Below, piece by piece: positions 361 to 64,000 of a stretch of DNA of 64,000 nucleotides. A program made the position numbers and the translations under genes. The first letter of the stretch is position 1. Each line of letters opens with the position of its first letter. Location: the NCBI GenBank assembly GCA_036244855.1, contig BQKZ01000321.1, positions 3,556 to 67,555 on the forward strand. The letters run 5' to 3'. The notes beneath the pieces were generated by a model. That model was not told the origin of the DNA. It did no database searches and saw only the letters and a program-made list of their open reading frames with translations. The stretch is from Temnopleurus reevesii (lineage: Eukaryota; Echinodermata; Echinoidea; Temnopleuroida; Temnopleuridae).

Positions 361-541
361 CAAGTACATTCATGCCATTCTTGAAGCCTTGCTTTCGGAC
401 GATCCGCGATCCGACTGTGACGTATTCGTATGTGATGTTGGTCGTGCTGACGTTCCCTGCGCTGTAAGAAGCGTTTAAAAGTGTAGTGGTATTAACAAGC
501 CTCTTCTCGACCACATCCTCGTCCGTCTGGTATGTTTGCGT
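361..541 (-). CDS. SLC1A: SLC1A transporter coding exon 4 (glycosylated extracellular loop)
   Basis: Seen: a 181-base exon, acceptor TTTTTATCAG| (AG at 543-542) with a long T tract, donor CTTG|GTGAGA (GT at 360-359), entering in phase 0 and leaving in phase 1. It encodes residues about 177-236, from TQTYQTDEDVVEKR to GFKNGMNVLG. Four N-glycosylation sequons (Asn 193, 199, 206, 211) crowd the middle, as expected for the large extracellular loop between TM3 and TM4 of eukaryotic EAATs. The end, K-x-G-x-N-x-L-G, matches the conserved entry into the next membrane segment. Later exons with the substrate-binding hairpins lie beyond the left edge, so the gene is incomplete because of the window, not because it is broken. 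Confidence 0.93.
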
Positions 542-2609: not shown

Positions 2610-3070
2610 TTTAAACTAAATAGAATCAATGTAAATGAACAGCTTTCGACATTGTCATAACACAATGATTAATTTTCTGTCTGATATCCAAAATGCTCTT
2701 GGAACGTGCAATAATAATGCAATGCATCGTATTCAACATTGAAATGTGAGTCTAGCAAAGTTGCAAAACTGCAAAACTGCCAGAATCTTCATGAATCAAT
2801 TGATGTCTAAATTGTAATTTTATAAATATTTGATCACAAAATTTTGTGACTTTATAATGATTTATAGAATCAATGTAAATGAAGAGCTCTATAATTTGTC
2901 ATGATATGAACAATTGATATATATTTCTGTCTGATATTTTAAATTTGATTGGAAGGGTAATATAATGGTGCAATACATCACTTATTCAACAAATGTGAGT
3001 CTAGCAAAGTACTGTATTGACTTGTAAACCGCCCAAATCTTCTTGAATCACTTGATGTATAAATTGTACA
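2610..3070. repeat. Diverged two-copy tandem repeat, period about 250
   Basis: Copies start near 2622 and 2866. They share AGAATCAATGTAAATGAA, a stretch around GTCTGATAT, TGTGAGTCTAGCAAAGT and an end near TTGATGT-TAAATTGTA. Many substitutions and indels separate them. The second copy ends about 150 bases before exon 3. Confidence 0.7.
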
Positions 3071-3223: not shown

Positions 3224-3266
3224 CTGTTGGAAGCAAGCTTGCACCAAATTTGTCGGGAAGAAATTC
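3224..3266 (-). CDS. SLC1A: SLC1A transporter coding exon 3 (43-base micro-exon)
   Basis: Seen: between acceptor TAAACAG| (AG at 3268-3267) and donor |GTATGTT (GT at 3223-3222) the minus strand has G plus 14 codons, NFFPTNLVQACFQQ. The first base completes the Arg codon left open by exon 2, and the exon ends in phase 0, as exon 4 needs. Human EAATs carry the equivalent N-M-F-P-x-N-L-V-x-A-x-F-x-Q at exactly this point, after DAFLDLIR. The exon is too small to find by length, so the call rests on motif, splice sites and phase agreeing. TM3-TM4 linker region. Confidence 0.9.
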
Positions 3267-9750: not shown

Positions 9751-10558
9751 TAAGCGACCAAAATATTATCGGGGGGGGGGGCATAATTGACAATAATGCA
9801 ATTATACCATTTCCATGCTTTGCTATTATAATTTACCTATCCACTGTTCCTGTTCATTAACTCTATCAAATAGAGCAAAGAGGACAAAAGAGTTGTATAT
9901 TTTCTTTTTCATTTTAATTGAGTAATAGTATCTGTTGGTTATTGTGGCTTATCCAATATCATTTTTCGCTGTGTCATTTATTTTACATTGGGGGAAGTAA
10001 TTGTTGTGTATGTTGATTATTTATTTGTGTTCTTACTTATATCTTTATTCATATGCGTAAGGGTTGTGTTTCATAATGACTCGTGATCCTTTCCTACACT
10101 ATATAGGAGTTTGCTCCTCATAGAGGGCCACCGTAGTGCAAAGAGTTGTGCATACCTTTACAGAATTTTATGAAAAATGTGTGTGCTTTCTCATGTTGTT
10201 TCCCTCTCTCAGGCTATCACAGTGAGCAGAAGAGATAAAGATTTGGACAAAGTAAACAATTTCATTCAAGCATTCACAGTAGATGGATGCATACAAAAGA
10301 ATCACTTTCCCTCTTATTCTATGGAAAAATGTCAAATAGGCATCGTACAATGAACAGGGAAGGTATTTTCTTTTGCTTAAATCATTAAACTATTGTGAAG
10401 GCTTAAGTGTAGTTGTTCACTTGGTCAAAAAACATTTGTCTCTTCTGCTCACAATGTCTCCTTCATTCTTTGCTTGTTATTGTTACTTGCTATTGTTTAT
10501 TGTTTGTTCAATGCAATGTATTGTTCTTTACAAAAGATAAACATTGCTAATTTTTTAC

Positions 10559-10650
10559 CTGAGGAGATCAAGGAACACATCAAGCGTGGTAAGCTCCTTC
10601 ACTTGGTTTCCATCTCCGAGGATGATTCCGATGACGACGGCGATGCAGGT
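10559..10650 (-). pseudogene. Exon 2 echo B: partial copy of SLC1A exon 2 with intact donor
   Basis: The minus strand repeats the last 137 bases of exon 2 minus an internal 45-base segment. It encodes [11 protein letters not shown] joined directly to [19 protein letters not shown]. The 45 missing bases are 15 codons, and the deletion ends share CCTCG, suggesting a microhomology deletion. The copy starts right after an AG (10652-10651) and ends at CTCAG|GTAAAA, a better donor than that of exon 2 itself. No stop. Its length (92) and entry phase do not fit between the real exons, so inclusion would shift the frame. Confidence 0.85.
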
Positions 10651-11048
10651 CTATTTATTGTTGTTTGCTATTGTTTGTTATCAGTTATTATCTTTGTTGC
10701 TATCATCATCAATCATTTGTTACTGCTTTCTATTGCTGTGTATCTTTATTGTAATCACAAGTGAGGAAATTCAGGGATCAAACATGATTTCTTTATTTCC
10801 AAAAGGTTGTGTATATGGTTGTATATTGTTTGTATAAAATACTTGTATAAACGTTTCTAATTGTTTAATGAGACAATTTTGTTGCTTTTTGTTTACTGAT
10901 ACAAATATTGTTGCTACTTATTCTTTACTGTAATCTCACAAATTGTTGTTCTTTCTTACTTACTGATACAATCCTTGCCGTTTTCATTGCTTAAAGATAT
11001 ACATTTGTTGTTGCTTGTTTTAAAAATAATATTGTTGTTGTCATATAC

Positions 11049-11134
11049 ATGAGGAGATCAAGGAACGCATTGAGGGTGGTGAGCTCCTTCACTTGGATTC
11101 CATTTCCGAGGTTCATCTTGATGGTGATGCAGAT
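11049..11134 (-). pseudogene. Exon 2 echo A: partial, more diverged copy of SLC1A exon 2
   Basis: The minus strand encodes ICITIKMNLGNGIQVKELTT and then LNAFLDLL, matching the end of exon 2 with about 51 bases missing inside, again a multiple of three. It begins after an AG (11136-11135) at exactly the same exon position as echo B. The last exon base is changed (CTCAT|GTATAT), so the donor is weakened. No stop in the family frame. Confidence 0.8.
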
Positions 11135-11367
11135 CTGTTTACTGTTGTTATTTTTATCGATTTGCTGAATGCTATCTTCATTGTTCAATATTGTTTTTTC
11201 TTTTTTATAATTTGCTCATTGCCAGTGTGTGTTTTGATTAGATTAATTTATTTCCGCTTCATTAACACTCAAAATATATTGTTTATTAATTTGTTTACTG
11301 TTCATATACTACTTATTTTTATTTACTATTTACTCTTGTTTGCTATTGTTTACTACTATAATCATAC

Positions 11368-11575
11368 CTGAGCAGATCAAGGAACGCATCGAGCGTGGTG
11401 AGCTCCTTCACTTGGTTTCCATCTCCGAGGTTCTTCTTAAAGTCTGGTCTTCCGGGCCGGATGGCGACCACGAGGATGATTCCGATGACGACGGCGATGC
11501 AGGTCGTGCAGAAGTAATAGAGGAGCGCCCTCCCGCCAAGTTTTCCGCTTGACTTAGCATCAAGGCCAGTGAGAC
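11368..11575 (-). CDS. SLC1A: SLC1A transporter coding exon 2 (TM2-TM3 region)
   Basis: Seen: a 208-base exon with acceptor CACATAG|GT (AG at 11577-11576) and donor CTCAG|GTATGA (GT at 11367-11366). It enters in phase 1, completing the Gly codon from exon 1, and leaves in phase 2. It encodes about residues 93-161: [20 protein letters not shown], then TM3 ([20 protein letters not shown]) and a loop ending in [12 protein letters not shown]. The order (LITG, ALD-SSGK-G, IRPG, DAFLDL-R) matches human EAATs. Codon use is GC-rich against the AT-rich introns. Two truncated copies of its 3' half lie downstream in the same gene at 11049-11134 and 10559-10650. Confidence 0.95.
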
Positions 11576-12738
11576 CTATGTGATGATGAAAATAATGATA
11601 AACAACATTTACATAATGCTTTATTTACAATGAAGTGTTTTAAGTGTTTTTGCAATATAGGATTTTCCGGCCAAATTCACAGGATTTTCATTTGAATCAA
11701 TACTTTTTGCATTTGAATTAGCGTAGATCGTTTTTGCGGTGCAAATTGTCATTCAATTTTTTTATTTTTTCATCACATTTGCGACGTTTGTCGAATATTT
11801 GTGAGGTCTTATCATTCGATTGAGAAACGAGTCAGTTAGCATTCAAAATAATCAGTGATCATCGGAGCGTCATTTCTAGCTTTTAAATTTAGCGGCTGGA
11901 ATTCTTTTTCTGAAAGATATCATTCAAGTTAAGAATGCAGGGAAGTAATACAGGGGAATGCATGGTAAGTGTTTTACAATCTAGGGAAATGTTCAGAATA
12001 TGAGCTTCTTTGTACAGTTTTGAACCGACAGCAGATTGATGGCTTAAGACTCAATTTTACAAACTCATATTCCAAGCCCCACTCATATTATGTAACCCTT
12101 TTCTTCCCCGTCACCCACGATAAATATAAATCAGATGAATCACAATATAGACAGATATATACATCATTTTCATTACTTTCATTTTATGTGCTTAGACTAA
12201 TTGATAAGTAAGATTAATTTCATTCTTAAGTTAATCATCATTGGAAGTCCTTGCATTGATCAACCATTGTATGGCATGAATTCATAAGAAATATAAAGAG
12301 AGAAGTAAATTGATCAAAGATTGTATAAAAAGTAGATAAAAAGAATATTGTAGATAAGAGAGAATAAACAAATAAAGAGAAAATATGATGAGCACTGAAA
12401 ACGCCCTAGAGAAAATTAAAATGCAAAATGTGCTAATTTGATATACTAGAAATGAATTCGAACGATAAAGTCATGCTGCCGAGAAAACGTGAACGGATTT
12501 GTGCTTAATAGAACGACCGCTTCACTCAAAAAGGCAAATTATTATCAATTAGAATGAAACTACCACGCATTCAAATGAAAACATCATGAATTCATAAGCG
12601 AGAAAAAGGAATTTAAACCAGGGATATCTCCGAGTTCACGGAATATGACGAATTTGAAATAAAAGAAAATTAAATCCAATGCTATTATTCCGATTTTCGC
12701 CGGGAAATCCTATATTACCTGTCATTAGCAAAGCTAAT

Positions 12739-12903
12739 TAGTAGCATGTGCCAAGCATACAGGGAGCATACAGAGTTTGCCCATGCTAATAATTTTTACA
12801 CTTGACAAACATTCCAGAAGTTTTGCATGTTTGCTTATTATGCTTGCCATTATTAGCATGGGCAAATTCTGTATGCTCCCTGTATGCTTGGCACATGCTA
12901 CTA
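12739..12903. mobile_element. MITE with about 55-base inverted ends, TA-flanked
   Basis: TAGTAGCATGTGCCAAGCAT at the left is mirrored by ATGCTTGGCACATGCTACTA at the right. The match runs about 55 bases per arm with few mismatches around a short loop. The outermost TA could be a target duplication (Tc1/mariner style), but a longer one is not seen. Long apparent minus-strand frames here are shadows of the palindrome. Confidence 0.75.
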
Positions 12904-13199
12904 ATTTGTAATGGGAAGGTTGCCTTTTTCCCCAAGTATCATTTTGAGGGTCCAGTGACATAGTAACATAACTCCAATGTCGGTGCAATAGAGATTTTGG
13001 AATTGAAATAATAAACACAATAGCATCAAGTGTTTGTTGGCATTAAAAAAAACGTATCGTCCTCTTGAATTGGATCGATATGCTGGGTAATGTTGACCCA
13101 AACACATTTTTCTCTCAACGAAATTGGAGCAACGTCTTTTGGTCACAGACCCCTTGATTGTACTTTGTTGTTGCTTTCAATATGATCATCATTATTTAC

Positions 13200-13338
13200 C
13201 TGTGATCAAGCTGGAAACGATGAGGGGAAGGATAAGCATCTTCAGCAATCTCATGAGAACATCACCAGTGAAACTGATGAGGAGGAGGGCATCTTCGCAC
13301 GGCTCCACCAATATCAGGCCCATACCAAGGAACACTCC
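13200..13338 (-). pseudogene. Exon 1 echo B: older partial copy of SLC1A exon 1
   Basis: The minus strand encodes [20 protein letters not shown], then [18 protein letters not shown] and IVSSLITG, ending at CAG|GTAAAT (GT at 13199-13198). About 18 of 138 bases and 6 of 46 residues differ from exon 1, yet there is no stop or frameshift. The copy starts in the middle of TM1, where exon sequence is fused to intron sequence, and has only a poor acceptor (CAACAAAG). It is the third unit of a 181-182 base tandem series. Confidence 0.9.
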
Positions 13339-13381
13339 GTCCATTGCACTTTGTTGATTTTATATGATTATCATGATTTAC

Positions 13382-13520
13382 CTGTGATCAGGCTGGAAAT
13401 GATGAGGGGAAGGATGAGCATCTTAAGCAGCCTCATGAGGACATCACCAGGGAAATCGATGAGAAGGATGGCATCTTCGGATGGCTCCACCGATCTGAGC
13501 CCCATCCCAAGGAACACTCC
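13382..13520 (-). pseudogene. Exon 1 echo A: recent partial copy of SLC1A exon 1
   Basis: About 96% identical to the end of exon 1 (five differences in about 138 bases). The frame is open, with Gly to Asp and Val to Ile as the only residue changes. Donor CAG|GTAAAT intact (GT at 13381-13380). The spacing from exon 1 is 181 bases, so an intron spliced from exon 1 to this copy would be only about 30-40 bases, too short for normal animal splicing. Read as a tandem-duplicated exon end with attached intron start. Confidence 0.92.
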
Positions 13521-13562
13521 CTCGATTATACTCTGCTGTTGTTTTTAATTATCAATATTTAC

Positions 13563-13839
13563 CTGTGATCAAACTGGAAACGATGAGGGGTAGGATGAGC
13601 ATCTTAAGCAGCCTCATGAGGACATCACCAGGGAAACCGATGAGAAGGATGGCATCTTCGGATGGCTCCACCGATCTGAGCCCCATCCCAAGGAACACTC
13701 CCATCAGCACCGACGCGACGGTGAAGATGATGAGAAGGTTCTTCTTGAACCAAATCCATGCTCTCGTCTTGAAGTCCCGGCTGCGCGGCCTGAAGGTGTA
13801 CTCCTGCTTCCCGCTCTCGACTGCGTCTACGTCGCCCAT
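13563..13839 (-). CDS. SLC1A: Excitatory amino acid transporter (SLC1A family), coding exon 1
   Basis: Seen: the minus strand encodes 92 residues plus one base, starting MGDVDAVESG. A charged cytosolic N-terminus (1-33) is followed by TM1 (about 34-54, [20 protein letters not shown]) and the family-typical start of TM2 (about 69-92, [17 protein letters not shown], then SSLITG). The exon ends in phase 1 at a strong donor, CAG|GTAAAT (GT at 13562-13561). Start choice: the ATG at 13839 sits in ACCATGG, and the same frame has a TGA at 13899-13897 upstream, so no earlier ATG is possible. Known of the family: SLC1A transporters are trimeric plasma-membrane carriers that take up glutamate/aspartate with Na+ and H+ and export K+. 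Their substrate-binding hairpins and TM7-8 lie in the C-terminal half, outside this window. Family assignment is firm; the exact paralogue is not. Confidence 0.95.
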
Positions 13840-13904
13840 GGTGTCAAAGGGTGTAGTCTCTGGAGTTTTTGGTTGAAATGTTGGTTTCAAAGGTACTCAG
13901 TTGC
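13840..13904 (-). other. 5' UTR part of exon 1 with 3' splice site
   Basis: Upstream of the start codon the minus strand reads TTTAATTTCCCACAG|GCAACTGAG, a good acceptor (AG at 13906-13905). This makes 13904 the likely first base of the exon and implies a separate non-coding first exon and promoter further right. I could not identify that first exon. An in-frame TGA at 13899-13897 closes the frame. Confidence 0.7.
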
Positions 13905-13982
13905 CTGTGGGAAATTAAAAAATACAAATAAAAATAGTTTGAAAAATTGGATAAATGACGTCTGATCATAATCCTATTTTCT

Positions 13983-14085
13983 ATTCTTCATTGCGTCTAT
14001 GTCATCCATGGTGTTAAGGGGTGGACTCTCTGGTGATCTTGGCGTTTGGCTGGTGTAAGCTCGTAATAGTGCTTGGTTACTTGCC
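13983..14085 (-). pseudogene. Echo of the start-codon end of exon 1 (nearer copy)
   Basis: The plus sequence CTATGTCATCCATGGTGTT aligns with CTACGTCGCCCATGGTGTC of exon 1, and similarity fades over about 100 bases. On the minus strand it keeps ACCATGG and reads MDDIDAMKNRK then stop, so it cannot start the transporter. It lies upstream of the exon. Confidence 0.7.
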
Positions 14086-14235
14086 AAAAAGGAACAAGAA
14101 AACATTAATCACATGTTTAATGGTCCAACTTCCTGGTGTACATTTGTAACTTGATACCCAATACCCCTCTAAAAATATATTAACAAAAGAAAAGTGTATT
14201 GAAATTTGGAAGAGCATAAATATTGTTGTCAGGTC

Positions 14236-14330
14236 ATGCTTCCGATTCTACTGCATCGTCCATGGTATCCCAGGGCGTCAAAAATTGTCATCAGTGGTAG
14301 TTTGATGCTTTTGGTGCTTGGTGCTAACTT
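14236..14330 (-). pseudogene. Echo of the start-codon end of exon 1 (farther copy)
   Basis: The minus strand reads TACCATGGACGATGCAGTAG, that is MDDAVESEA then stop, against MGDVDAVESG in exon 1. More diverged than the copy at 13983 and followed by the same kind of CTTGGTGCT sequence. If transcribed in the 5' UTR it would be a short upstream frame. Confidence 0.6.
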
Positions 14331-14880
14331 GTGATAAATAATATAGAGAAAATAGTACTCTGAAACCAACATGGAACTTAGTATCTCATGATGCTCCAAC
14401 ATCTGCTCAAGAAAATACACTATTGTGGTTTAACACCGTAGACGTGAACAGGTTCCTTTTCATCTTCCTCCCATTTCTAGGTCTGTCCCTATTTCCCTTT
14501 GTCTATTGCAAGATTTGATTATCACCCATACTATCAATAATAAAACAAAGATATCTCTTCATAACTGCTGGAAAACTTGTCCTAATTCTAAGGTAAACTC
14601 AACACACAGAGTACAACCACAAATCCTTCTTGCCAAGTGGGGCCCTTTCACAAAACCCCTACAGAGGTACGTGGTTGGGTTAACAATAGGAAAATTAAGC
14701 AAGGCTCAGTGGGATGGTCATGAACTTGTCACGATTCTTCTCTCGTGGAAACCCCCTCTGGACGATTTCACCTTCGGCCTAATTGTCTCACTGAGTACGA
14801 TAACAACACATGGAGTGCTACACAGCAACTTCTGACACCTTGCCCGTTAGAAGTTGAATGCCCACTGGAGTAAGCCAAGG
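14331..14880. other. No supported feature
   Basis: Moderately AT-rich, with a 109-codon open frame on the plus strand at 14506-14835 that has no recognisable domain. Probably intron or intergenic DNA upstream of the transporter. Confidence 0.5.
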
Positions 14881-14883
14881 CCT

Positions 14884-15416
14884 GAAAATAAAGTGACATC
14901 TCAAAAAGTTTAGCTAAGGACAGACTCACACCCCAATGCAGTTACCAACACTTTGCTGTCATATCCACCAACTTGTCGCTATGATAGACTGGTGCAACAG
15001 GCCCTCCGTTCCAGTCAATTGCAGATTCACCTTTGTTTGTACCAGGTTAAATAGATCATACCCATTGAGATCAGCAGGAGATATGTCACAACGCATCAAC
15101 AAATCTTTACTATGAAGTATGCAACTCTAATGCTATCTCAGATTTATGCAAGGAACCATTACACTAAACTACTTTTTTCCAATTGAATATACCCATTGGA
15201 AAAAAGAAAATAAAGTCACATCTCTCAAATTTTAGCTCAGGACAGGCTCAAACCCCAATGCACTTATCAACACTTTGCTGACCAACTTGTCGCTATAACA
15301 TACTCTTGCAACAGACCCTCCGTTCCAGTCAATTGCAGATCCACCTTTGTTTGTACCAGGTTAAATAGAACATGCCCATTGAGATCAAAAGAAGATATGT
15401 CACAACGCATCAACAA
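14884..15416. repeat. Tandem duplication of about 320 bases
   Basis: 14884-15111 and 15206-15416 share GAAAATAAAGT-ACATCTC, CCCTCCGTTCCAGTCAATTG, CACCTTTGTTTGTACCAGG and GATATGTCACAACGCATCAA at roughly 85-90% identity, with small deletions in the second copy. Confidence 0.8.
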
Positions 15417-15476
15417 CTAACGGCTGTGATGGGTTCGAAGTTAATAGATGTGAAGGTCTTCGATAAGTCCTCTAAA

Positions 15477-17240
15477 CAATCCCATGTTTCTTCAGCTGGT
15501 CCTATCTCCTCATTATATTTGTATTGTTGTTTCTTGAGATAATACATTACTAATGGAAGCAAAGGAAATGTTAAATGTGACCCTGTAAATTGTTCTTCCT
15601 GTACTGAAAGACCCCTGTACATGAATCTTTAAAATTGGAATATTGAATCTTTATTGACGAGATTTGACATACATCAGTCCTCTTCTAAAAAAAATGGATG
15701 ATGGGTGAGATAGTGATAGTGGTGCTATTACTTGTCGTGGCAGTGGTTGTGGAAGTGGTGATGATGATAATGAAGAATGATGGTTGTGGTGGTGGTTATG
15801 ATGATGATGGTGGTGGTGATCATATAGGTGATGGTGATGGTGATGGTAATGACGATGCTTGTGGTGGTGGTGGTAGTGGTGGTGGTGGTAGTGAGGGTGA
15901 TGGTAATGACAGTGGTTGTGGTGGTGGTGGTGGTGGTGCTGGTGCTTGTGGTATTGATGGTGATGGAGATGATGATGGTCATTGTGATGGTGATCGTGAT
16001 GGAGGTGGTGGTGATGGTAATGATGATGGCGATGGTGTTGATGATAGTAATGATGGAGATTGATGATAATGACAAGCAATCCCATCCAAAAAAGCTGATC
16101 CTTTCTGCTCTCATTATTTGTCTTGTTTCTTAAAATAATAAATTACTTATGGAATCAAAGGAAATGTTAAATGTGGGCCTGTGTTGTTCTTCCTGTGTTG
16201 ATGTCCCTGGCTTGTACAACAATTGGTAAGTGCCCTTCTGAAAATAGAATGAGCCGAGGGCTAATGATAATGGTAATGGTTGTACTTGTCATGCTTGTGG
16301 TGGTATTGTTGGTGCTATAGTGATGATGATGATATTAATGGTGGTGGTGGTATTGGTGATGACAATTATTATGGTGTTAGTGATGACGATAATGCTATTG
16401 CTTGTGATGAAGATTATAATCATGGTGATGATAATGATGATATGAAGATTATAATCATGGTGATGATAATGATAATTATTAACATGACAGTGATAGTGAT
16501 TGTGGTGATGGTGATGATGATGATGAGCAATCCTATGTTTCTTATGCTTGTCTTTTCAGCTCACTAGATTCGTCTTTTTACTTATGAATGCATTACTCAT
16601 AAAATCAAGGGAAAGGTTAAATGGTGGTGACGGTGGTGGAGACGGTGGTGGTGGTGGTGGTAGTGGTGGTGGTAGTGGTGGTGATGATGATGATGGTGGT
16701 GGTGGTGGTGGTGATGGTGATGGTGTGGGTGATGATGACGGTGGTGGTGGTGGTGTTGGTGGTGGTGGTGATGGTGATGGTGGTGGTGCATGGTGATGGT
16801 GGTGGTGGTGATGATGGTAACAATGATGGTGGTGGTGATGGTAACAATGATGGTGATGGTGTGGGTGATGATGATGACGTGGTGGTGGTGGTGGTGGTGG
16901 TGGTGATGATGGTGGTGGTGGTGGTGGTGGTAGTGGTGGTGATGGTGGTGATGGTGGTGTTGGTGTTGGTGGTGCATGGGGATGGTGGTGGTATTGATGG
17001 TGGTGGTGGTGATGGTGGTGGTATTGATGGTGGTGGTGGTGATGATGGTAACAATGATGGTGATGGTGTGGGTGATGATGATGATGGTAGTGGTGGTGGT
17101 GTTGGTGGTGTTGGTGGTGGTGATGATGATGATTGTAGTGGTGGTGGTGGCGAGAATGATAACGGAGATGGCAACACTCAAAGTTACGTCTGATGATGAT
17201 GATGATGATGATGATAATGATGATGATAGCTACTTATCAA
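15477..17240. repeat. GGT/GAT microsatellite complex with three interspersed unique blocks
   Basis: Long GGT/GAT trinucleotide tracts (15700-16060, 16270-16530, 16621-17220) alternate with a conserved block of about 100-130 bases (15477-15604, 16076-16203, 16528-16622; CAATCC at the start, AAAGGAAATGTTAAATG at the end). The whole is a compound tandem repeat. The His-, Val- or Gly-only reading frames over it are not genes. Confidence 0.9.
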
Positions 17241-29533: not shown

Positions 29534-29670
29534 AATATACAATGACTCTCGAGGTTCTGGTTAAAACTATTCGCACGATTGAGCATCAGAATAGTACCAT
29601 GTGGTACTATTCTGATGCTCATGAGTGCGAATAGTTTTAGCCAGTACCGAGAATCAAGTCATTGTATATT
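29534..29670. repeat. Large hairpin with about 65-base arms
   Basis: ATACAATGACTCTCGAGG and onward to ACTATTCGCAC mirrors GTGCGAATAGT to CATTGTAT. The centre is a second perfect hairpin, AGCATCAGAATAGTACCA / TGGTACTATTCTGATGCT. The right arm continues into the tandem array that follows, so this may be the end of the element that was amplified. Confidence 0.8.
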
Positions 29671-30495
29671 ACTTTTATATCCCTTCTTACAACAACATTA
29701 ACAATAAAGTAGTCTATTGCAGCAGATTGAATAATCTTACCTTGTCTTAATGATAATTTGATAATCTGATAAATTGTTTTTCTAATCTCTGTCTCGTCTT
29801 CTCGTTGAGCACATCATGCAAACGAAGCCCGCCAGAAGTTCCCCGTGCCGCGTAGCTGAGAAGCACTGTCTCTCTCGCGCGCGGGCAGGTCTCTGCGTGC
29901 AGGCAGTGCGAAAAGTTTTAGCCAACAGTACCGAGAATCAAGTCATTTTATATTACTTTTATATCCCTTCTTACAACAACAACAACAACAACAACAATAA
30001 AGTAGTCTATAGCAGCAGATTGAATAATCTTACCTTGTCTTAATGATAATTTGATAATCTGATAAATTGTTTTTCTAATCTCTGGCTCGTCTTCTCGTTG
30101 AGCACATCATGCAAACGAAGCCCGCCAGAAGTTCCCCGTGCCGCGTAGCTGAGAAGCACTGTCTCTCTCGCGCGCGGGCAGGTCTCTGCGTGCAGGCAGT
30201 GCGAAAAGTTTTAGCCAACAGTACCGAGAATCAAGTCATTTTATATTACTTTTATATCCCTTCTTACAACAACAACAACAACAACAACAATAAAGTAGTC
30301 TGTAGCAGCAGATTGAATAATCTTACCTTGTCTTAATGATAATTTAATAATCTGATAATTGTTTTTCTAGTCTCTGGCTCGTCTTCTCGTCGAGCACATC
30401 ATGCGAACGAAGCCCGCCAGAAGTTCCCCGTGCCGCGTAGCTGAGAAGCAGTGTCTCTCTCGCGCACGGGCACGTCTGTTCCGTCGTCACAAATT
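29629..30495. repeat. Tandem array: three units of about 292 bases with a CpG-rich core
   Basis: Units start near 29629, 29911 and 30204 (AGTTTTAGCCA-AGTACCGAG). Each holds an (AAC)n tract, AT-rich sequence and a CpG-rich core (CGAAGCCCGCCAGAAG, CTCTCTCGCGCGCGGGC). Units 1 and 2 are almost identical; the third is more diverged at its end. Each gives the same 75-codon or longer frame from ATGC-AACGAAG, which I judge a by-product of repetition. Confidence 0.92.
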
Positions 30496-38739: not shown

Positions 38740-39200
38740 ATAATAGCCTAGGAGGATAATTTATATCCATTGTAAACAATTTCACATCTTGTTGCATACC
38801 ATTTCTCAATAAAATCCACTCCCGTGATTCTAACCATAGGCTATTATCAGATCCTTTTCATCCCATGCTATATATCTTAATCAATTTAAACAATTTCTCG
38901 TCTGGTTAATACCCTTTCTCAATAAAATCCACTCCCATAATTCTAACCATAGGCTATTATAAGATGCTTTTCATCCATGCTATATACCTTATATCAATTT
39001 AAACAATTTCTCGTCTTGTTAATACCATTTCTCAATAAAATCCACTCCCGTAATTCTAACCATAGGCTATTATCAGATGCTTTTCATTCCATTCTATATA
39101 CCTTATATCAATTTCTCATATTTTTAATAGCATTTCTTCATAAAAATCCACAATTATACACCTGTAATTCTATCCATTGGGTGTTATTAAGCGCTTTCCA
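38740..39200. repeat. Tandem array, about four units of 120 bases
   Basis: Units share TTTCTCAATAAAATCCACTC, ATTCTAACCATAGGCTATTA and TTTAAACAATTTCTCGTC. The last unit is degenerate. Confidence 0.85.
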
Positions 39201-41745: not shown

Positions 41746-43389
41746 AACATATCAATTCAAAGTAGTGTGTTCTGATTCATACTTCGCTTTCTTTTACCTG
41801 TCAAAGCAAATCAACACAGAATTTAGAATGATACCTGTTTACATACCACTAAATGAATTCCATCAAAAGCACATGACAAATCATGTCATGCCAAAATGCT
41901 TGGCTCGTGTTAAAAAGATATCATTTTTCAACGAAAAAAAACTGCGCCAAACATCCAGTACCACACAAGCAGACCCAAAACATTTAATCAACAGCACACT
42001 ATCAGTTTACAGACCTGCGCATGAACTTTGAAAGGTAGTAGAACTGTACCCAGCTTGATAAAAAGTACACTCAGTTAAAAGAAAATATCAACAACTATTC
42101 ATCATTTTATACGAGCTTCGTTATTGACTTGAATGACTGTTTGATACTTTTCTATCAAAACGCTAATCCATCAAAAAGTTTTCCTCACAAAATTATTGAA
42201 CAGGCACTATTCAAAAGTATCCAGCATACTCTATGGTATTATTTGACTTAATTGTACAAAATACCACAATGTCGCGAAGTTTCCAGTTTAAATTTATATC
42301 CAGGCTATAAAAGGCTATTCTCCATAATTTACAAACCTTGAAATTAACTATATGCGCTATGATCCAGAAAAGTTTTGGCCTATTTTCACAACTTAGAAAC
42401 TTGGATGCACTTGCCAGTAGTAACCCAACTTGTTGACTTTATTAACAAAATCACAGAACAATGAGCACAGCAAAATGTCCACACAAAATCATGTGCATGC
42501 CATCAACAGATATTCAAAATGTGCAAACTTTGAGTTGGAGCTCTATATGATCAAGGATTTAGGTATTAGTACTTAAAAACTTGGTGACAATCCAAGTTTA
42601 CCTGACTTCACGTATAGTGTACAAGTTACAATTCAAACACGACAAACTTTTCCCCACACAAAGTATGCCAATGGCAATGTTCTCAAGAACATAAATGAAT
42701 GCTCCAGAACTATAGATCCAACACTGATGCACCAATACAGCCTCAAGATGAGACAGTTTGCAAGCATGAACATCAATGAATTCGTCCATGAATAAATGTA
42801 ATACTTTTTCAGTAGATCAACAGTATTGATCATTTACACTTATTTATGACTTACAGCTTTATAATCATTTACCAAGCCTTGAATTAAGCTCTAAGCATTA
42901 TAAATCCAGTATTCACACTTCAAATCTTTATTACAAACTCCCAAAATTTCACCCCCATGAACAATTCGAACAAACACCAAAGCTCAGCAAACTTTCCCAG
43001 ATCTAAAAAACTATTCCTGCCATCAAATCTTGAAATTTACTAACCTTTTTATCAACTGAAGCCCCAATTATTATCCAAAAGTAACTTCAATACTTTAATG
43101 CAACACAACTTGTCTTCATGTATGAGTACAAAACACCACAACGCAGCAAACTTTTCCTAATACAAAGTGTGTGAATGTACTCCAGAGCTAATATCCAAAA
43201 TGCTCCCATACAAGCTCAACTCCAGACAGTTTGCGTGCGTGCAAACCAATGTAAAGGTCCAGGGATGAATGTAATATTTTCCCAGTAGATTGACAAGGGC
43301 TGTCTGTTCTCAAATCTCTGAATGGTAGGCACTCGCTGAATGGACCGTTCCGCAGATCCATGAAGCACAGGCACGCACTGTGTGCTTTG
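41746..43389. other. No supported feature
   Basis: AT-rich sequence; weak internal similarity between 42590-42850 and 43080-43290 (AACTTTTCC-ACACAAAGT, GTAGAT-AACAG) suggests an old duplication. No genes. Confidence 0.45.
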
Positions 43390-43834
43390 GAATCGCTAGA
43401 GCGAGAGAAGAGAGACAGAGAGAGAGATTGCTAGTAGGCATTTGAGGCAGAAAGTGGAGTGCAGGGGAAATAGGGAGAGAGATGAAAATGAAAAAGAGGA
43501 AGCAAAATATAAAAGTATAGAGGGAGGAAAAAAGAATGAAAAGTTTCTCTAAGTGGATTGTTCCTCCGATCCGCTAGGCACGCAGTCTGTGCATTTGGAA
43601 TCACTGGAGCGAGAGAAGAGAAGAGAGACAGAGAGAGAGAGATTGCTAGTAGACATTTGAGGCAGAAAGTGAAGTACAGGGGAAATAGGGAGAGAGAAGA
43701 AAATGAAAAAAAAGGAAGCAAAATATAAAAGTGTAGAGGGAGGAAAAAAGAATGGAAAGTGTCGCTGAATGGATCGTTCCGCAGATCCATCAGGCACGCA
43801 CTGTGTGCTTTGGAATCACTAGAGCGAGAGAAGA

Positions 43835-43875
<41 letters not shown>

Positions 43876-45186: not shown

Positions 45187-46688
45187 TCAGAATTTTGGAA
45201 GGGAAATTTTTTTAAAATTTTACACTTTGGGAAAGGAATAGAAGAGAAGGGATGAATATCATCTCTATCTAAAGATAATTCAGAGAAATTTCATTGGTAG
45301 ATAATCACTTGACAAATAAACATTTGAAACCCAGGTGATGCCAGTAAAAGTACATTGGATGAAAAAAATTATGGGATCCAGGCAGGAGGGGTAAAGCCTG
45401 CCCTCTTGAGTTCACATGAAGGTTAATGACCACCTAATTTCAATCCAAGATCACAAAATGTACAAACAAACAAAAATTGATTTCTTCAGCATAGCCCCAA
45501 CATTGATTTGTCATGTCAAAGTTTAAGTGACCAGTTATTCTATTCAAAGAATAGCTTATCACCGCAAAAGCATAACCTCTAAAAGTAGTTAGTGAAATTT
45601 ACTCTGGAAAGACCGCATTTCAAAAGTAATGAAATTGGAGTGATCTTTTTTTGTAACTTTTACTCAAACTTTATTCCTTCCTCGAGAGGTGAACATTGGC
45701 ACTCATTATCTTTTAGAGAGTAATATGATAAATGATACAACTTGCTAACCGAATATTTGGATGGTAAAAAATAAACATTCAGGCACTACTTCTCCCTCAA
45801 CATACATTCTGTGAAAGAGATAGTGAGGGAGATGACTGGAAAACTACCGGAAATTTCTTCAGCAACTACTGAAACACCCCCTTTTCATGGAATTTTCTGC
45901 ATTTCTCCATTGCGATTTTATTCATTGCACCTTCTTCATTTCCATTAAAGAGAAAATGAATGTGCTGTCATGTAACTTCTGAGAATTACATTCGAGAAGA
46001 CATTCTATGAATCATTTCGAAGCTTGGACACTTAAAAAGGGTGGAAAGCCAGTAAAGTTGGCCGCTATCCGAATGTATATCAAAAAAATATTTAGTTGCC
46101 CAAGAGTGTCATTGTTGAAAAATGGTGTCAGTTAGTCAGCATCGGAAAATTTGTTAGGTTTTTTTCCTAGTTTAGGAATATATTTCATCAGTAAAATAGG
46201 GCTGAGTGAGTGTAATAGAAGTAAAAGGCCAAAGAACATCAGGAAACGACTTTGCAGGATGTATTTCACATGTTTTTTACCAATCTACAATGATATTAAT
46301 TTAAGCACTTTGTCTTCCATTCAGGCATGGATTCAGGTCAGGCCATTTTGAGAGGGTCGGTTAGTCAGTGGAGGGCACCCATACAACTTTTCTTTTTATG
46401 CCTAATGATCATCATCAATGCCTTTATTGGTGCAGCCAAATTGATGCTTCTCATCGGTTACATGATTCTTCCTCAAATTTATTCAGGTGATAATTTAACT
46501 TTTCACATTTAACTAGCCCTTTCAGACATTGAGGAAATATTTTGAACACTTTACTTTACAGTCCTATGTAAAACAGTTAAAACACACTTGGTATAGCTTG
46601 CTATCAATCCTGCTAAAATGCATAGCAAATTGCAATGTGATACCAGGGAAATTATTCCCTGTTATTGACACAATCATATTGCTTTCTA
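45187..46688. repeat. First copy of a 1.5 kb near-identical duplication
   Basis: Recurs at 46690-48197 with a handful of differences plus a replaced block near 45297-45400. The two copies touch at the single N (46689). The right end (46070-46390) contains a decayed relative of the GGATGCC element (GGAGGGCACCCATACAACTT). Short frames in both copies are identical, which shows recent origin and not coding function. Confidence 0.85.
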
Positions 46689-46689
46689 N

Positions 46690-48197
46690 TCAGAATTTTG
46701 GAAGGGAAATTTTTTTAAAATTTTACACTTTGGGAAAGGAATAGAAGAGAAGGGATGAATATCACCTCTATCGAAAGATAATTCAGAGAAATTTCATTGT
46801 TCGGTAATCAAATGAAAAATAGCATTTTGAGATCACTCTTACAGAAACCCAGGGCAGTATAAATATTGGAAGAAGTAATGATGCTGACAAGATACGAGGG
46901 GTAAAGCCTGCCCTCTTGAGTTCACATGAAGGTTAATGACCACCTAATTTCAATCCAAGATCACAAAATGTACAAACAAACAAAAATTGATTTCTTCAGC
47001 ATAGCCCCCACATTGATTTGTCATTTGAAAGTTTAGGTGACCAGCTATTCTAGTCAAAGAATAGCTTATCACCGCAAAAGCATAACCTCTAAAAGTAGTT
47101 AGTGAAATTTACTCTGGAAAGACCGCATTTCAAAAGTAATGAAATTGGAGTGATCTTTTTTTGTAACTTTTACTCAAACTTTATTCCTTCCTCGAGAGGT
47201 GAACATTGGCACTCATTATCTTTTAGAGAGTAATATGATAAATGATACAACTTGCTAACCGAATATTTGGATGGTAAAAAATAAACATTCAGGCACTACT
47301 TCTCCCTCAACATACATTCTGTGAAAGAGATAGTGAGGGAGATGACTGGAAAACTACCGGAAATTTCTTCAGCAACTACTGAAACACCCCCTTTTCATGG
47401 AATTTTCTGCATTTCTCCATTGCGATTTTATTCATTGCACCTTCTTCATTTCCATTAAAGAGAAAATGAATGTGCTGTCATGTAACTTCTGAGAATTACA
47501 TTCGAGAAGACATTCTATGAATCATTTCGAAGCTTGGACACTTAAAAAGGGTGGAAAGCCAGTAAAGTTGGCCGCTATCCGAATGTATATCAAAAAAATA
47601 TTTAGTTGCCCAAGAGTGTCATTGTTGAAAAATGGTGTCAGTTAGTCAGCATCGGAAAATTTGTTAGGTTTTTTTCCTAGTTTAGGAATATATTTCATCA
47701 GTAAAATAGGGCTGAGTGAGTGTAATAGAAGTAAAAGGCCAAAGAACATCAGGAAACGACTTTGCAGGATGTATTTCACATGTTTTTTACCAATCTACAA
47801 TGATATTAATTTAAGCACTTTGTCTTCCATTCAGGCATGGATTCAGGTCAGGCCATTTTGAGAGGGTCGGTTAGTCAGTGGAGGGCACCCATACAACTTT
47901 TCTTTTTATGCCTAATGATCATCATCAATGCCTTTATTGGTGCAGCCAAATTGATGCTTCTCATCGGTTACATGATTCTTCCTCAAATTTATTCAGGTGA
48001 TAATTTAACTTTTCACATTTAACTAGCCCTTTCAGACATTGAGGAAATATTTTGAACACTTTACTTTACAGTCCTATGTAAAACAGTTAAAACACACTTG
48101 GTATAGCTTGCTATCAATCCTGCTAAAATGCATAGCAAAGTGCGATGCGATACCAGGAAAATTATTCCCTGTTATTGACACAATCATATTGCTTTCT
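46690..48197. repeat. Second copy of the 1.5 kb duplication
   Basis: Starts with TCAGAATTTTGGAAGGG exactly at the N, equal to 45187 onward, and continues beyond the point where the first copy is cut. That is the pattern of two contigs whose overlap was not merged. Confidence 0.85.
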
Positions 48198-49255
48198 TCA
48201 GATGTGCGGTAAGATGTCAAGAGGCGTTCCAAAAAGTCATTTCGTAGAGGAGATGGAGAAAGCTGCATCAGTAGTGAACATTAATGATGTTACCTATCGT
48301 TTTTCTCAGATGGACAGTGTGATCCATTATGTCATATGTCATTATTATAACATATTAATGTTTTCGTCACAGAAAGTTTGATGCATGGGGAGTGAAAGGG
48401 AAAAGAGCTTAAATCCTGTCCCCTCCCTAAATATCCATCCCTGCTTTTTAACTGATGTCAGAGTGTGTCTGACAAATGCAGCCTGATATGTTCTATGATG
48501 TAAATTTACAAATTGACATCACAGAACATGCATGTACATTTTACCCAATGTAAAGTTGCCACAATGGGTGAAGGGGGGGGGGGCGGTTTTCAGTGCCTGC
48601 TCCATCCCAAAGCTAAATAACCATCCCGTTAAAGTGAATAAAACAGATCAGGGTGCCAAAATGGGGATGGGCATCTATGGCAACCATCCCCTATTCTTTG
48701 GTGGAGTAGAACAGGATCTCTAACCATTTCTGCCCCCTCTCTGCATATAGTCATACACCAACCCTGCACTTATCACTGACGCCAGATAGCTTTCGTCACA
48801 TACAGCACAATGTTGTGTTATGTGATGGAGGCGCATTAAAAGGCCCCCCAATTCACGCTTTTATCACAAAAAGTAATAATATGGGGCATCATTTTATGCA
48901 AAATCATCTAGATAATTGCTACCATTGGGCAGTCCGAGCAAATGGCCTTATTTAGCTATCATAATATTAGCCCAGAATAGCTATCGCTGGCTTGGGCTTC
49001 TTTCAAGTTTACACGCAAGTCTATGGGGGTTGAAACAACTTGATAATAGATGAAAGGGAAGCACACGGTGGATCGATTTTATTTTTGGAGTACGAAAAGA
49101 TGAATAGTCTTTCATCTCACAGACATTTTTCCAGATCGATCCACCGTGTGCTAATTCCTTAAATCATCCATGTTTGCAAGTGCCTTAACAAGATAGATTT
49201 TTTCAATTCGCTCTGAATTTTCAGGCTATTCTAACAAAATGCAACGTCGAACGTG
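48198..49255. other. Unique sequence with one short inverted repeat
   Basis: No gene recognised. GCACACGGTGGATCGAT (49061-49077) is mirrored by ATCGATCCACCGTGTGC (about 49135-49151), a 17-base perfect inverted repeat around about 57 bases, possibly a tiny transposon. Confidence 0.5.
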
Positions 49256-49651
49256 NNNNNNNNNNNNNNNNNNNNNNNNNNNNNNNNNNNNNNNNNNNNN
49301 NNNNNNNNNNNNNNNNNNNNNNNNNNNNNNNNNNNNNNNNNNNNNNNNNNNNNNNNNNNNNNNNNNNNNNNNNNNNNNNNNNNNNNNNNNNNNNNNNNNN
49401 NNNNNNNNNNNNNNNNNNNNNNNNNNNNNNNNNNNNNNNNNNNNNNNNNNNNNNNNNNNNNNNNNNNNNNNNNNNNNNNNNNNNNNNNNNNNNNNNNNNN
49501 NNNNNNNNNNNNNNNNNNNNNNNNNNNNNNNNNNNNNNNNNNNNNNNNNNNNNNNNNNNNNNNNNNNNNNNNNNNNNNNNNNNNNNNNNNNNNNNNNNNN
49601 NNNNNNNNNNNNNNNNNNNNNNNNNNNNNNNNNNNNNNNNNNNNNNNNNNN
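49256..49651. other. Assembly gap (396 N)
   Basis: Run of N. The first base after it is the exact start of a duplication whose other copy begins at 61542. Confidence 0.99.
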
Positions 49652-51980
49652 CTTTCGAAGACCAACCCAACCAACTTCGTCAATCATACAAATCTCTATG
49701 TATGTGAATTTGAATTGAAAAAATGATACTGTTATCATTAAGTTGTTTACATTCAGTAACCACTCCAGTAGGCCGGTTTAGTAATAGATATTCTTGTCAA
49801 CAACCATATCTTTGTACCTTTGCGATATTCCTTAAACCGGTTAGTAACAATCAAATGACAGCACTTGGAATCCACTTTCCATTCATAACTTGTTGCTATG
49901 CCGGGCACAACTCAGACATGCTTTAGGGTCATGAAGAACAAACTTTATGTGCAAAAGACACACACAATTTGTAGATCTTTTCGTAAATCAGACTATCCAA
50001 AACTTTCTCCAAAGAGTTTTAGTGGATTTATAAAGTGCCAAATATGGGCTGCTGCATTGGAATGAATAAACCTATGTTCATCTGATGTAATTGTACCTTC
50101 ATCTATTCTTATTTCATGCAATAACTAATTGTTTATTTGCCTACTTGTGATGCGAATATTCTTCCATTTACTGTTTTAAGTTGAAAACTGTTCAGTTTAT
50201 CATGGAGCACACCCCTATCAATTGAAATGTAAATCTATCAGAAAGCAAATGTGTCAATCTTTTCAAAAAGTATTTCGAAAATGGTAATGACCTCCATATG
50301 ATCTGACCACTTACATAATATCCTAATCTAATTTGTTCAAAATCGAGATGATCTCTCTATGACTAACATGGCCGCCGACATATTCTTCAAACCTCTTTTC
50401 GAAGAGCTTCACGGTGGTATCAAACATAATATCATTACAAAACGTTTCCTTGAACGTTTGTCGTCATCGTCGTAAGTAAGGCAAACGAAATCCCTGCCAC
50501 AGGCGTTCTCGACACGCGATCTACATAATCTCCCAATGCAACAGTCCCGGAATGCGCCCATCCATTCTCTTCCTGGGAGATCGGAGAAAGGTCTTATAGA
50601 AAGGAAACATTAGGGGCGTTCGCACCAGGGTGAAAAGTTCTCTTTTTTACAGGGGATCTTTTTACATCCTGAAAAATAGCCCCCATAATACATTTTGGAA
50701 AGGCTATTCGGGAGCCCAAGGGGGTTATTTCTACGGGGTTCTTTTTTTTTTGGGGGGGGGGCTTATTGCACTTCGCCCTCATTTTTTTTCTCGATGGTTT
50801 GCAATACGAAATCAGAGTGATTTGGATCAAAATCCAAGCATTGATGTTATTTAGCAATACAGTCGAAAAGGTGACGTAACTGAATAATTATTGAATAATT
50901 ATACTCCAAAGGATCGAGATCCAAATCACCAGAAAATTGTGTCAGCACTAAGAATTACCATAAGTCTGGACATCGATATCAAGATCGTAGTAATTTGTCG
51001 TTGTGCGAACGCCCCGATTATTGCCAAGAAGGAAAACGACAGGGAAAAGGAACCAATTTCAAGTTGAGATTGATATTGCCTCAAACTCCTGTGGGAGGAA
51101 ATTACCTAGCCTTTGTGTACTCGATACTAAGTTCCTTTAGACCTGGTAAAACGAACCCAAACATTGGAAATATTTTTCCCAGGACATCAACAGAAATGAG
51201 AGCATAGTTGTTGAGGTGGGGAGCGATTTGTTAACCGTTTTTGTTCCAAAAAGTCTGTGATATTTGGGATACAATGTTTTTCTAACATGTTTGTCACCTG
51301 AGAAAACACTTTATGGAAGCTATAAGTGTTACTTTTGCAAATCCTACAACTACTACTAATGATGATTCATACAATTTTCAAAGGTTTTGCAAATCGAAGA
51401 AAACTTTTTAGCCATGAATAAGTACTTCTAAAAATTCTAAGGACCCCTCCCCTACGGCTACCCCTTTTTAATTGCTTCATTTCACTAACAGTTCATTTTT
51501 TAAGGATATGTAGTGGAGCAGGAGAGATGATGCAACAGCTGAAATCACTCATGTGTGAAAATAATTACAGGGTGCTTGGAAACATATAAAATAGTTGCAT
51601 TTGGGGGATTCACAGAAATATATAACCGTGTATAAAATTGATGTATACATTGGATGATGATCCCTAATTTTTCAAATAGTGCATGAAAATTTAGAAGGAT
51701 GGTCATTGACTTATAATAAAGCAAAAACAAAAACATATTTTGGATGCCCTAAAACGAAAGTGGCCTGACCTGAACTTAATTTTTATCCCCCTTTTTTGTT
51801 GCCTTTCAACAGTTTGACAAATTACAGTAAAATCAGACATAAACATGTGAAATGTGACCTGAAAAGATAGTTTCTCATGCTCTTTGGCGTTCAGCCACTT
51901 TAAGTGCTTTATTTTACTTGTAAATTGCATGAATTGTGTTTGAAATATAGAAAGAATTATCAAAAACAAAATTTTTCCAT
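49652..51980. repeat. First copy of a 2.3 kb duplication
   Basis: CTTTCGAAGACCAACCCAAC onward equals 61542 onward for at least 2.3 kb, to the window's right edge. The copies differ by substitutions, by small indels around G runs, and by one insertion of about 144 bases present only at 62112-62255. Confidence 0.88.
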
Positions 51981-61541: not shown

Positions 61542-64000
61542 CTTTCGAAGACCAACCCAACCAACTTCGTCAATCATACAAATCTCTATGTATGTGAATT
61601 TGAATTGAAAAAATGATACTGTTATCATTAAGTTGTTTACATTCAGTAACCACTCCAGTAGGCCGGTTTAGTAATAGATATTCTTGTCAACAACCATATC
61701 TTTGTACCTTTGCGATATTCCTTAAACCGGTTAGTAACAATCAAATGACAGCACTTGGAATCCACTTTCCATTCATAACTTGTTGCTATGCCGGGCACAA
61801 CTCAGACATGCTTTAGGGTCATGAAGAACAAACTTTATGTGCAAAAGACACACACAATTTGTAGATCTTTTCGTAAATCAGACTATCCAAAACTTTCTCC
61901 AAAGAGTTTTAGTGGATTTATAAAGTGCCAAATATGGGCTGCTGCATTGGAATGAATAAACCTATGTTCATCTGATGTAATTGTACCTTCATCTATTCTT
62001 ATTTCATGCAATAACTAATTGTTTATTTGCCTACTTGTGATGCGAATATTCTTCCATTTACTATTGAAAAGTTGAAAACTTTTCAGTTATGGAGCACATC
62101 TCTATCAATTGGCCTTTGGCCTCTGTATATCCCTCACACTTGTATTCGTTCTATATTTATGTATTATCTTTCTATTACATTATGCCTTCTGTATGTTGTT
62201 ATTGTTTGCAATGCAAATTGTGAAATAAATGAAATTGAAATTGAAATTGAATTGAAATGTAAATCTGTCAGAAAGCAAATGTTAAAGTATTTTCAAAAAG
62301 TATTTTGAAAATGGCAGTGACCTCCATATGATCTGACCACTTACATAATATCCTAATCTAATTTGTTCAAAAGCGAGATGATCTCTCTATGACTAACATG
62401 GCCGCCGACATATTCTTCAAACCTCTTTTCGAAGAGCTTCACGGTGGTATCAAACATAATATCATTACAAAACGTTTCCTTGAACGTCCGTCGTCATCGT
62501 CGTAAGTAAGGCAAACGAAATCCCTGCCACAGGCGTTCTCGACACGCGATCTACATAATCTCCCAATGCAACAGTCCCGGAATGCGCCCATCCATTCTCT
62601 TCCTTCGAGATCGGAGAAAGGTCTTATAGAAAGGAAACATTAGGGGCGTTCGCACCAGGGTGAAAAGTTCTCTTTTTTACCAGGGATCTATTTCCATTTT
62701 CCTCTTGAAAAATATCCCCATACATTTTGCGAAGGCTATTTGGGATCCCATCGGGGCTATTTTTACAGTTTAGGGAGGAGGGGGGGGGGGGGGTAATTGC
62801 ACTTCGCCCTCATGAATTTTTTTTGCTGGTTTGCAATACGAAATCAGAGTGATTCGGATCAAAATCCAAACATTTGATGTTATTTAGCACTAATATCGAC
62901 CAGGTGATGTATCTGAATAATCATACTCGAAAGGATCGCGATCCGAATTACCAGAAAATTGTGTCAGCACTACGAATTAATTTAAGTCAGGACATTGATA
63001 TCAGGATCATAGTAATTTGTCGTTGTGCGAACGCCCCGATTATTGCCAAGAAGGAAAACGACAGGGAAAAGGAACCAATTTCAAGTTGAGATTGATATTG
63101 CCTCAAACTCCTGTGGGAGGAAATTACCTATCCTTTGTGTACTCGATACTAAGTTCCTTTAGACCTGGTAAAACGAACCCAAACATTGGAAATATTTTTC
63201 CCAGGACATCAACAGAAATGAAAGTGTAGTTGTTGAGGTGGGGAGAGATTTGTTAACCATTTTTGTTCCAAAAACCGTGATATCTGGGATACAATGTGTT
63301 TCTAACATGTCTGTCGCCTGAGAAAATACTTTATGCAAGCTACCAGTGTTACTTCTGCATATCCTACTACTACTACTAATGATGATTCATACAATTTTCA
63401 AAGGTTTTGCAAATCGAAGAAAACTTTTTAGCCATGAATAAGTACTTCTAAAAATTCTAAGGACCCCTCCCCTACGGCTACCCCTTTTTAATTGCTTCAT
63501 TTCACTAACAGTTCATTTTTTAAGGATATGTAGTGGAGCAGGAGAGATGATGCAACAGCTGAAATCACTCATGTGTGAAAATAATTACAGGGTGCTTGGA
63601 AACATATAAAATAGTTGCATTTGGGGGATTCACAGAAATATATAACCGTGTATAAAATTGATGTATACATTGGATGATGATCCCTAATTTTTCAAATAGT
63701 GCATGAAAATTTAGAAGGATGGTCATTGACTTATAATAAAGCAAAAACAAAAACATATTTTGGATGCCCTAAAACGAAAGTGGCCTGACCTGAACTTAAT
63801 TTTTATCCCCCTTTTTTGTTGCCTTTCAACAGTTTGACAAATTACAGTAAAATCAGACATAAACATGTGAAATGTGACCTGAAAAGATAGTTTCTCATGC
63901 TCTTTGGCGTTCAGCCACTTTAAGTGCTTTATTTTACTTGTAAATTGCATGAATTGTGTTTGAAATATAGAAAGAATTATCAAAAACAAAATTTTTCCAT
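61542..64000. repeat. Second copy of the 2.3 kb duplication
   Basis: Equivalent to 49652-51980. It includes G runs, the dispersed repeat at 62930-63015 and the beginning of the GGATGCC element near 63742. It leaves the window still matching. Confidence 0.88.
62112..62255 (+). mobile_element. Retroelement 3' end with ATTGA tail, present in one copy only
   Basis: Inserted at CAATTG relative to 50210. It ends with GCAATGCAAATTGTGAAATA, AATGAAATTGAAATTGAAAT, a typical non-LTR 3' end with a short tandem tail. Neighbouring AATTG on both sides may be the target duplication. Confidence 0.65.

Follow-up and report, generated by a model that had tools for sequence, protein, structure and literature searches.

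Pieces of two coding exons recur in the introns around them within one gene of the sea urchin Temnopleurus reevesii, and the question that this locus raises is whether such partial copies, here called echoes, are working parts of the transcript or leftovers of duplication. The gene, an EAAT2-like (SLC1A) glutamate transporter, was found on the minus strand of contig BQKZ01000321.1 (assembly GCA_036244855.1), in a stretch of 64,000 nt that was analyzed as a whole and is referred to as the window. Very probably, the echoes go back to ordinary short tandem duplications across exon-intron borders of an intact gene, with the surplus pieces being spliced out and drifting. They are most likely neutral debris and not a new splicing system.

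The window holds exons 1 to 4, all bordered by AG at the acceptor and GT at the donor and together forming a single open frame when joined; the gene continues past the window start, and its remainder lies outside. The exons are as follows (slashes mark splice borders):

13563..13904, minus strand: coding exon 1, with part of the 5' untranslated region (5' UTR), ATG at 13839 and coding sequence down to 13563.
13904 and 13563, minus strand: borders of exon 1, acceptor-like ...TTTCCCACAG/GCAACTGA and donor ACAG/GTAAAT.
11368..11575, minus strand: exon 2, acceptor ...CACATAG/GTCTCACT, donor CTCAG/GTATGA, with an EAAT protein match.
3224..3266, minus strand: exon 3, from splice borders and urchin protein alignment.
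361..541, minus strand: exon 4, from splice borders and urchin protein alignment.

Exon 1 was identified by its protein match to EAAT2 and sea urchin EAATs, and exons 1 and 2 joined matched the EAAT2 chain 7xr4 with an E value of 4.7e-44. The four joined exons gave 237 residues, which among the matches listed were 83% identical to EAATs of Strongylocentrotus purpuratus and Lytechinus variegatus. Among the best 120 of 1317 matches, identity to the EAAT of Diadema setosum was 70%, sea urchin EAATs reached E values of 5.7e-124 with PF00375 precomputed on the matched proteins, and no relative nearer than these urchin EAATs appeared. Judged by homology over its N-terminal part, the gene is thus a member of EAAT/SLC1A (SDF family, PF00375) of the sea urchin type, in agreement with a preliminary description of the locus, made from the sequence alone, that had called it a glutamate transporter. 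Exons 1 to 4 look intact and appear to encode a normal N-terminal transporter part. In the self-BLAST of the window, no local duplicates or echoes of exons 3 and 4 were found.

The 3' end of exon 1 belongs to an array of three head-to-tail units, 181 and 182 bp apart, each composed of the last 139 nt of the exon and 42-43 bp of intron 1:

13701-13563, minus strand: the 139 nt at the 3' end of exon 1 itself, designated copy c1.
13521..13562, minus strand: c1 spacer, 42 nt, start of intron 1.
13382..13520, minus strand: echo c2, the 139 nt at the 3' end of exon 1 and its donor, differing from c1 by 3 synonymous and 2 replacement changes (5 in all).
13339..13381, minus strand: c2 spacer, 43 nt.
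13200..13338, minus strand: echo c3, the 139 nt at the 3' end of exon 1 and its donor, differing from c1 by 12 synonymous and 6 replacement changes (18 in all).
13152..13199, minus strand: c3 spacer and end of the array, alignable with both other spacers.

Self-BLAST recovered the array with E values of 1.4e-125 and 3.2e-51, far beyond chance, so that the donor end of exon 1 does recur at 13563, 13382 and 13200, as had been proposed. Exon and intron sequences are contiguous in these units, as in a tandem duplication across an exon-intron border. Echo c2 resembled its two neighbors unevenly (permutation p 0.0004). Along its first 107 nt, 16 sites had the c1 base where c3 differed and none had the c3 base where c1 differed, while the last 32 exon nt had 0 c1-like and 2 c3-like sites and the spacer had 3 and 5, respectively. 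Echo c2 therefore looks like a mosaic, and the best account seems to be that c1 and c2 underwent gene conversion or unequal exchange, so that the conversion suggested earlier is a likely contributor; alternatively, c3 could have evolved faster in the first 107 nt.

The 3' part of exon 2 was likewise found in two further copies:

11049..11134, minus strand: echo A of the exon 2 3' part, with a 51-nt deletion, 7 replacements and donor AT/GT.
10559..10650, minus strand: echo B of the exon 2 3' part, with a 45-nt deletion at a parental CCTCG direct repeat, 1 replacement and the donor intact.
10651..10676, minus strand: copy of intron 2 positions +17 to +42 fused to echo B, a tandem-duplication junction.

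Echo A (86 nt) and echo B (92 nt) correspond to 137 nt of the parent exon 2, and both deletions are in frame. The donor of echo A reads AT/GT against AG/GT in exon 2, and that of echo B reads CAG/GTAA. E values were 1.9e-22 for echo A and 6.7e-22 for echo B against exon 2, and 2.8e-20 between the two echoes, which bears out the donor ends reported at 11368, 11049 and 10559. Directly 5' of echo B, intron 2 positions +17 to +42 were repeated with 24 of 26 identical bases, the runner-up ungapped site on either strand of the window reaching 20 of 26. The 5' flanks of echoes A and B also resembled each other. Together with the head-to-tail array of exon 1, this junction supports local duplication as the cause, which the preliminary description had also assumed. 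The parental unit would have measured ca. 179 bp (137 bp of exon and ca. 42 bp of intron) across the donor, if the whole 42 nt of intron had been included. A common ancestry of the exon 1 and exon 2 spacers may be considered, there being a weak likeness to the start of intron 2 (11326-11368), in A-rich sequence, with shuffles scoring as well in 7 of 1000 cases for the c1 spacer, 152 of 1000 for c2 and 32 of 1000 for c3.

The divergence of these copies also bears on whether they are real, since mis-joined alleles or draft errors could have produced them as an assembly artefact. N gaps do occur elsewhere in the window, and the segments 49652-51980 and 61542-64000 are near-identical beside one of them, as unmerged haplotypes can give. 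However, each echo carries substitutions of its own and the exon 2 echoes carry deletions of their own, there is no N in 10000-15500, and between c1 and c2, 12 of the 42 ungapped spacer columns are mismatched where the exon part has 5 mismatches in 139 positions, probably too much for alleles. We consider an artefact very unlikely. The pair of segments just mentioned, 98% and 93% identical and starting at the edge of the N gap 49256-49651, may represent a second haplotype that was not merged, or else a young repeat.

Upstream of exon 1, two echoes of its 5' end had been proposed:

13969..14042, minus strand: 5' echo A, start-codon part of exon 1 and 5' UTR, 73% identical.
14215..14330, minus strand: claimed 5' echo B, around 14236, with chance-level similarity.

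The first was recovered by self-BLAST (13822-13872 against 13992-14042, 51 nt, 80%, E 1.3e-5), and its score of 52 compared with a shuffle maximum of 27 (0 of 300 as high). The second was rejected, its score of 22 being reached 12 times when its own stretch was shuffled 300 times and 40 times in 300 shuffles of 14060-14480; the shuffle test took 13905 as the start of exon 1, one base off. The preliminary description had listed three sites for each exon end, a count that includes the real exon, hence a claim of six echoes. Five of them stand, the one at 13983 included, and the one at 14236 falls away.

The side on which each echo lies, downstream of its exon for the 3' echoes and upstream for the 5' echo, is dictated by tandem duplication once one of the breakpoints falls within the exon. 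A duplication from within the exon into the next intron leaves the whole exon first and the 3' piece downstream, a duplication from the preceding intron into the exon puts the 5' piece upstream, followed by the complete exon, and other orders are impossible. The polarity, earlier offered as a clue, is the geometry of any such event and carries no information. The window also proved to be rich in local duplications, its self-BLAST giving 74 direct pairs within 1.5 kb. Under hard masking, once a minimum spacing was required, there were 64, grouped in 17 clusters, two of which belong to the echoes described here. Given this geometry and this background, a special mechanism acting on exon edges was rejected; neither can the echoes be seen as peculiar to this gene, with similar local direct duplications along the window. 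Outside 10400-14400, local direct duplications covered 8357 of 59999 bases (13.9%), a figure that includes simple-repeat-rich clusters such as 14884-16623, so that clean duplications must be rarer than this. Since local duplications are this frequent, two affected exons are not a great surprise: at least two of four random exon-sized intervals were touched with a probability of 0.19, where an overlap of at least 30 bp was all that was needed, neither a breakpoint inside the exon nor repeated hits on one exon being required. On the other hand, exon copies probably stay recognizable for longer than intron copies, one partner being conserved.

Several other repeats were seen along the window. A direct duplication of 219 nt (87% identical, 322 bp apart) lies upstream of exon 1 at 14884-15416, and another of 209 nt (75%) is intronic at 2620-3068, near exon 3, which is itself untouched. 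Tandem arrays lie at 29624-30477 (period 293 bp), 38761-39114 (113 bp) and 43333-43855 (215 bp), further signs of common short tandem duplication, and a tandem duplication of 1.5 kb (96% identical) occupies 45187-48202, with a single N at its join (46689). Intron 1 contains a near-perfect inverted repeat at 12736-12906 (58-nt arms, 98% complementary, 55 nt apart), perhaps, as a guess, a small hairpin-like mobile element.

The echoes might still be used, or have been used until recently, if c2, c3 and the exon 2 echoes acted as mutually exclusive or cassette exon pieces and gave isoforms differing around transmembrane segment 2 or 3 (TM2 or TM3). The open frames fit this idea, as do the intact CAG/GTAAAT donors of c2 and c3, the CAG/GTAA donor of echo B and a number of replacements in c3 below that of the neutral model (see below). 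However, none of the four 3' echoes is preceded by a polypyrimidine tract: by simple base counting, which is no trained splice-site score, the 17 bases ahead of them contained 4-7 pyrimidines compared to 12-14 ahead of the real exons 1 to 4. Alternative tandem exons have an acceptor and a donor of their own in each copy, a combination that the echoes lack. Moreover, the spacers between c1 and c2 and between c2 and c3 are just 42-43 nt long and A-rich, and as the echoes comprise 3' exon parts only, their use would presumably also require an internal donor in the parent. Replacements in the echoes showed no avoidance of conserved positions either, 10 of 16 falling on residues invariant in seven echinoderm proteins (R55, S60, G68, P70, A156, D155 and others), when 85 of the 150 compared positions were invariant; one of the seven is the protein encoded in the window itself, and two are S. 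purpuratus entries that are near-identical. Echo A has lost the donor consensus, and echo segments were absent from the four aligned sea urchin proteins P0001-P0004, all single predicted proteins. Because of the missing polypyrimidine tracts and the replacements at invariant residues, the 3' echoes look non-functional from their sequence, and their use as exon pieces is very unlikely. The retained regulatory use raised in the preliminary description thus finds little support, with a small doubt kept alive by the test on c3.

Along similar lines, the echo donors might act as decoy or poison splice sites, so that use of the c2 or c3 donor retains a spacer with an in-frame stop and the resulting mRNA decay tunes the transporter level. 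The donors of c1, c2 and c3 are indeed identical over CAG/GTAAAT, and a retained spacer would stop early (ACA GGT AAA TAT TGA). Nonetheless, recent duplication and conversion also yield identical donors, and the donor of echo A has decayed, so that we regard a decoy role as most improbable.

Some results weigh against duplication followed by neutral drift. We modeled neutral divergence with the present exon as ancestor, equal time on both branches, a kappa of 2 and a parent omega of 0.05. Echo c3 had 6 replacements among 18 differences, whereas a neutral copy of a constrained exon should have 10.8, and none of 400 simulations gave so low a number. When pooled, the four 3' echoes had 16 replacements among 36 differences, compared to 22.0 expected (fraction of 0.015 as low), and none of them has lost its open frame. 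Within 10400-14400, local duplications take up a larger share (944 of 4001 bases) than outside, though the region was picked for them. Finally, the exon 1 and exon 2 units are near-equal in size (181 and ca. 179 bp), each with 42 nt of intron, and coincidence is the sole reason that we can offer.

Individually, the other three 3' echoes fit neutrality (fractions of 0.29, 0.14 and 0.91). Echo omegas were tried at the neutral value and at 0.1 only; the latter predicted 7.3 replacements for the set against the 16 observed, which excludes that level for the set, and is compatible with c3 alone (3.9 expected, 6 observed). As for the open frames, 59% of the neutral simulations had no stop in any echo; open frames alone are therefore not rare, and a functional exon was rejected as a reading of them. 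For c3, the deficit of replacements and the changes at invariant residues point in opposite directions; early constraint giving way to decay would accommodate both, as would chance, c3 being one of several tests. A different history could be drawn from these points, in which selection once favored c3, possibly together with c2, as an alternative end of exon 1, or in which a regulatory decoy donor persists there to this day. The gene would then show an exon in the course of gain or loss by boundary-crossing tandem duplication, with conversion from the main exon refreshing c2 and the near-equal unit sizes reflecting a size-limited duplication process. We hold this to be very improbable; if the c3 signal did reflect selection, the locus would document how part of an exon was acquired and afterwards lost.

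Short tandem duplication with drift, the reading that we prefer, would involve three kinds of event, numbered here in a presumed order. In the first, ca. 181 bp from inside exon 1 over its donor into intron 1 were duplicated, up to three units. In the second, ca. 179 bp over the exon 2 donor would have been duplicated, the copies being later shortened by deletions and now lying apart in an A-rich intron, and in the third, the 5' edge of exon 1. With a breakpoint inside the exon, each event would keep one whole exon and place the surplus piece in the intron on the side of the extension. The surplus pieces would leave with the intron by splicing and drift, while conversion or unequal exchange may have kept the first 107 nt of c2 c1-like.

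In the literature searches, nothing on such echoes in sea urchin EAATs was present among the matches listed, an absence that is not proof, and a search of PMC9741552 for relic or partial duplicates found no passage on them. Exon duplication as such is widespread: in the part of PMC9013439 considered here, a 2002 study is cited for tandemly duplicated exons in ca. 10% of animal genes, 4,027 intronic targets are given for human genes, and unannotated intronic exon copies are described as common. Compared with other sea urchin EAAT/SLC1A genes, the T. reevesii gene has a normal N-terminal part (83% identity to S. purpuratus and L. variegatus) and may differ by its intronic echoes. The striking polarity of the partial exons follows from tandem duplication with a breakpoint in the exon and means nothing more. 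The value of the locus is rather that of a tidy natural example of duplications across exon borders, from which alternative exons and new introns can arise, and of sequence exchange among tandem units.

With tandem exon duplication, the source of mutually exclusive exons as treated in that part of PMC9013439, the locus shares local copies of coding exons within one gene; here, however, only one exon edge was copied, leaving the copies without an acceptor of their own. Another known case is the potato RdRp gene, for which the portion of PMC4974935 considered here reports that a tandem genomic duplication across an intron-exon boundary made a new intron. In both genes, exon and intron were duplicated together across a splice boundary. 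In potato, it was the acceptor boundary and a new intron arose, whereas in the sea urchin, donors were copied and no new intron is demonstrable. The echoes of this EAAT2-like gene are very probably a further instance of the known boundary-crossing tandem duplication and not a new mechanism.

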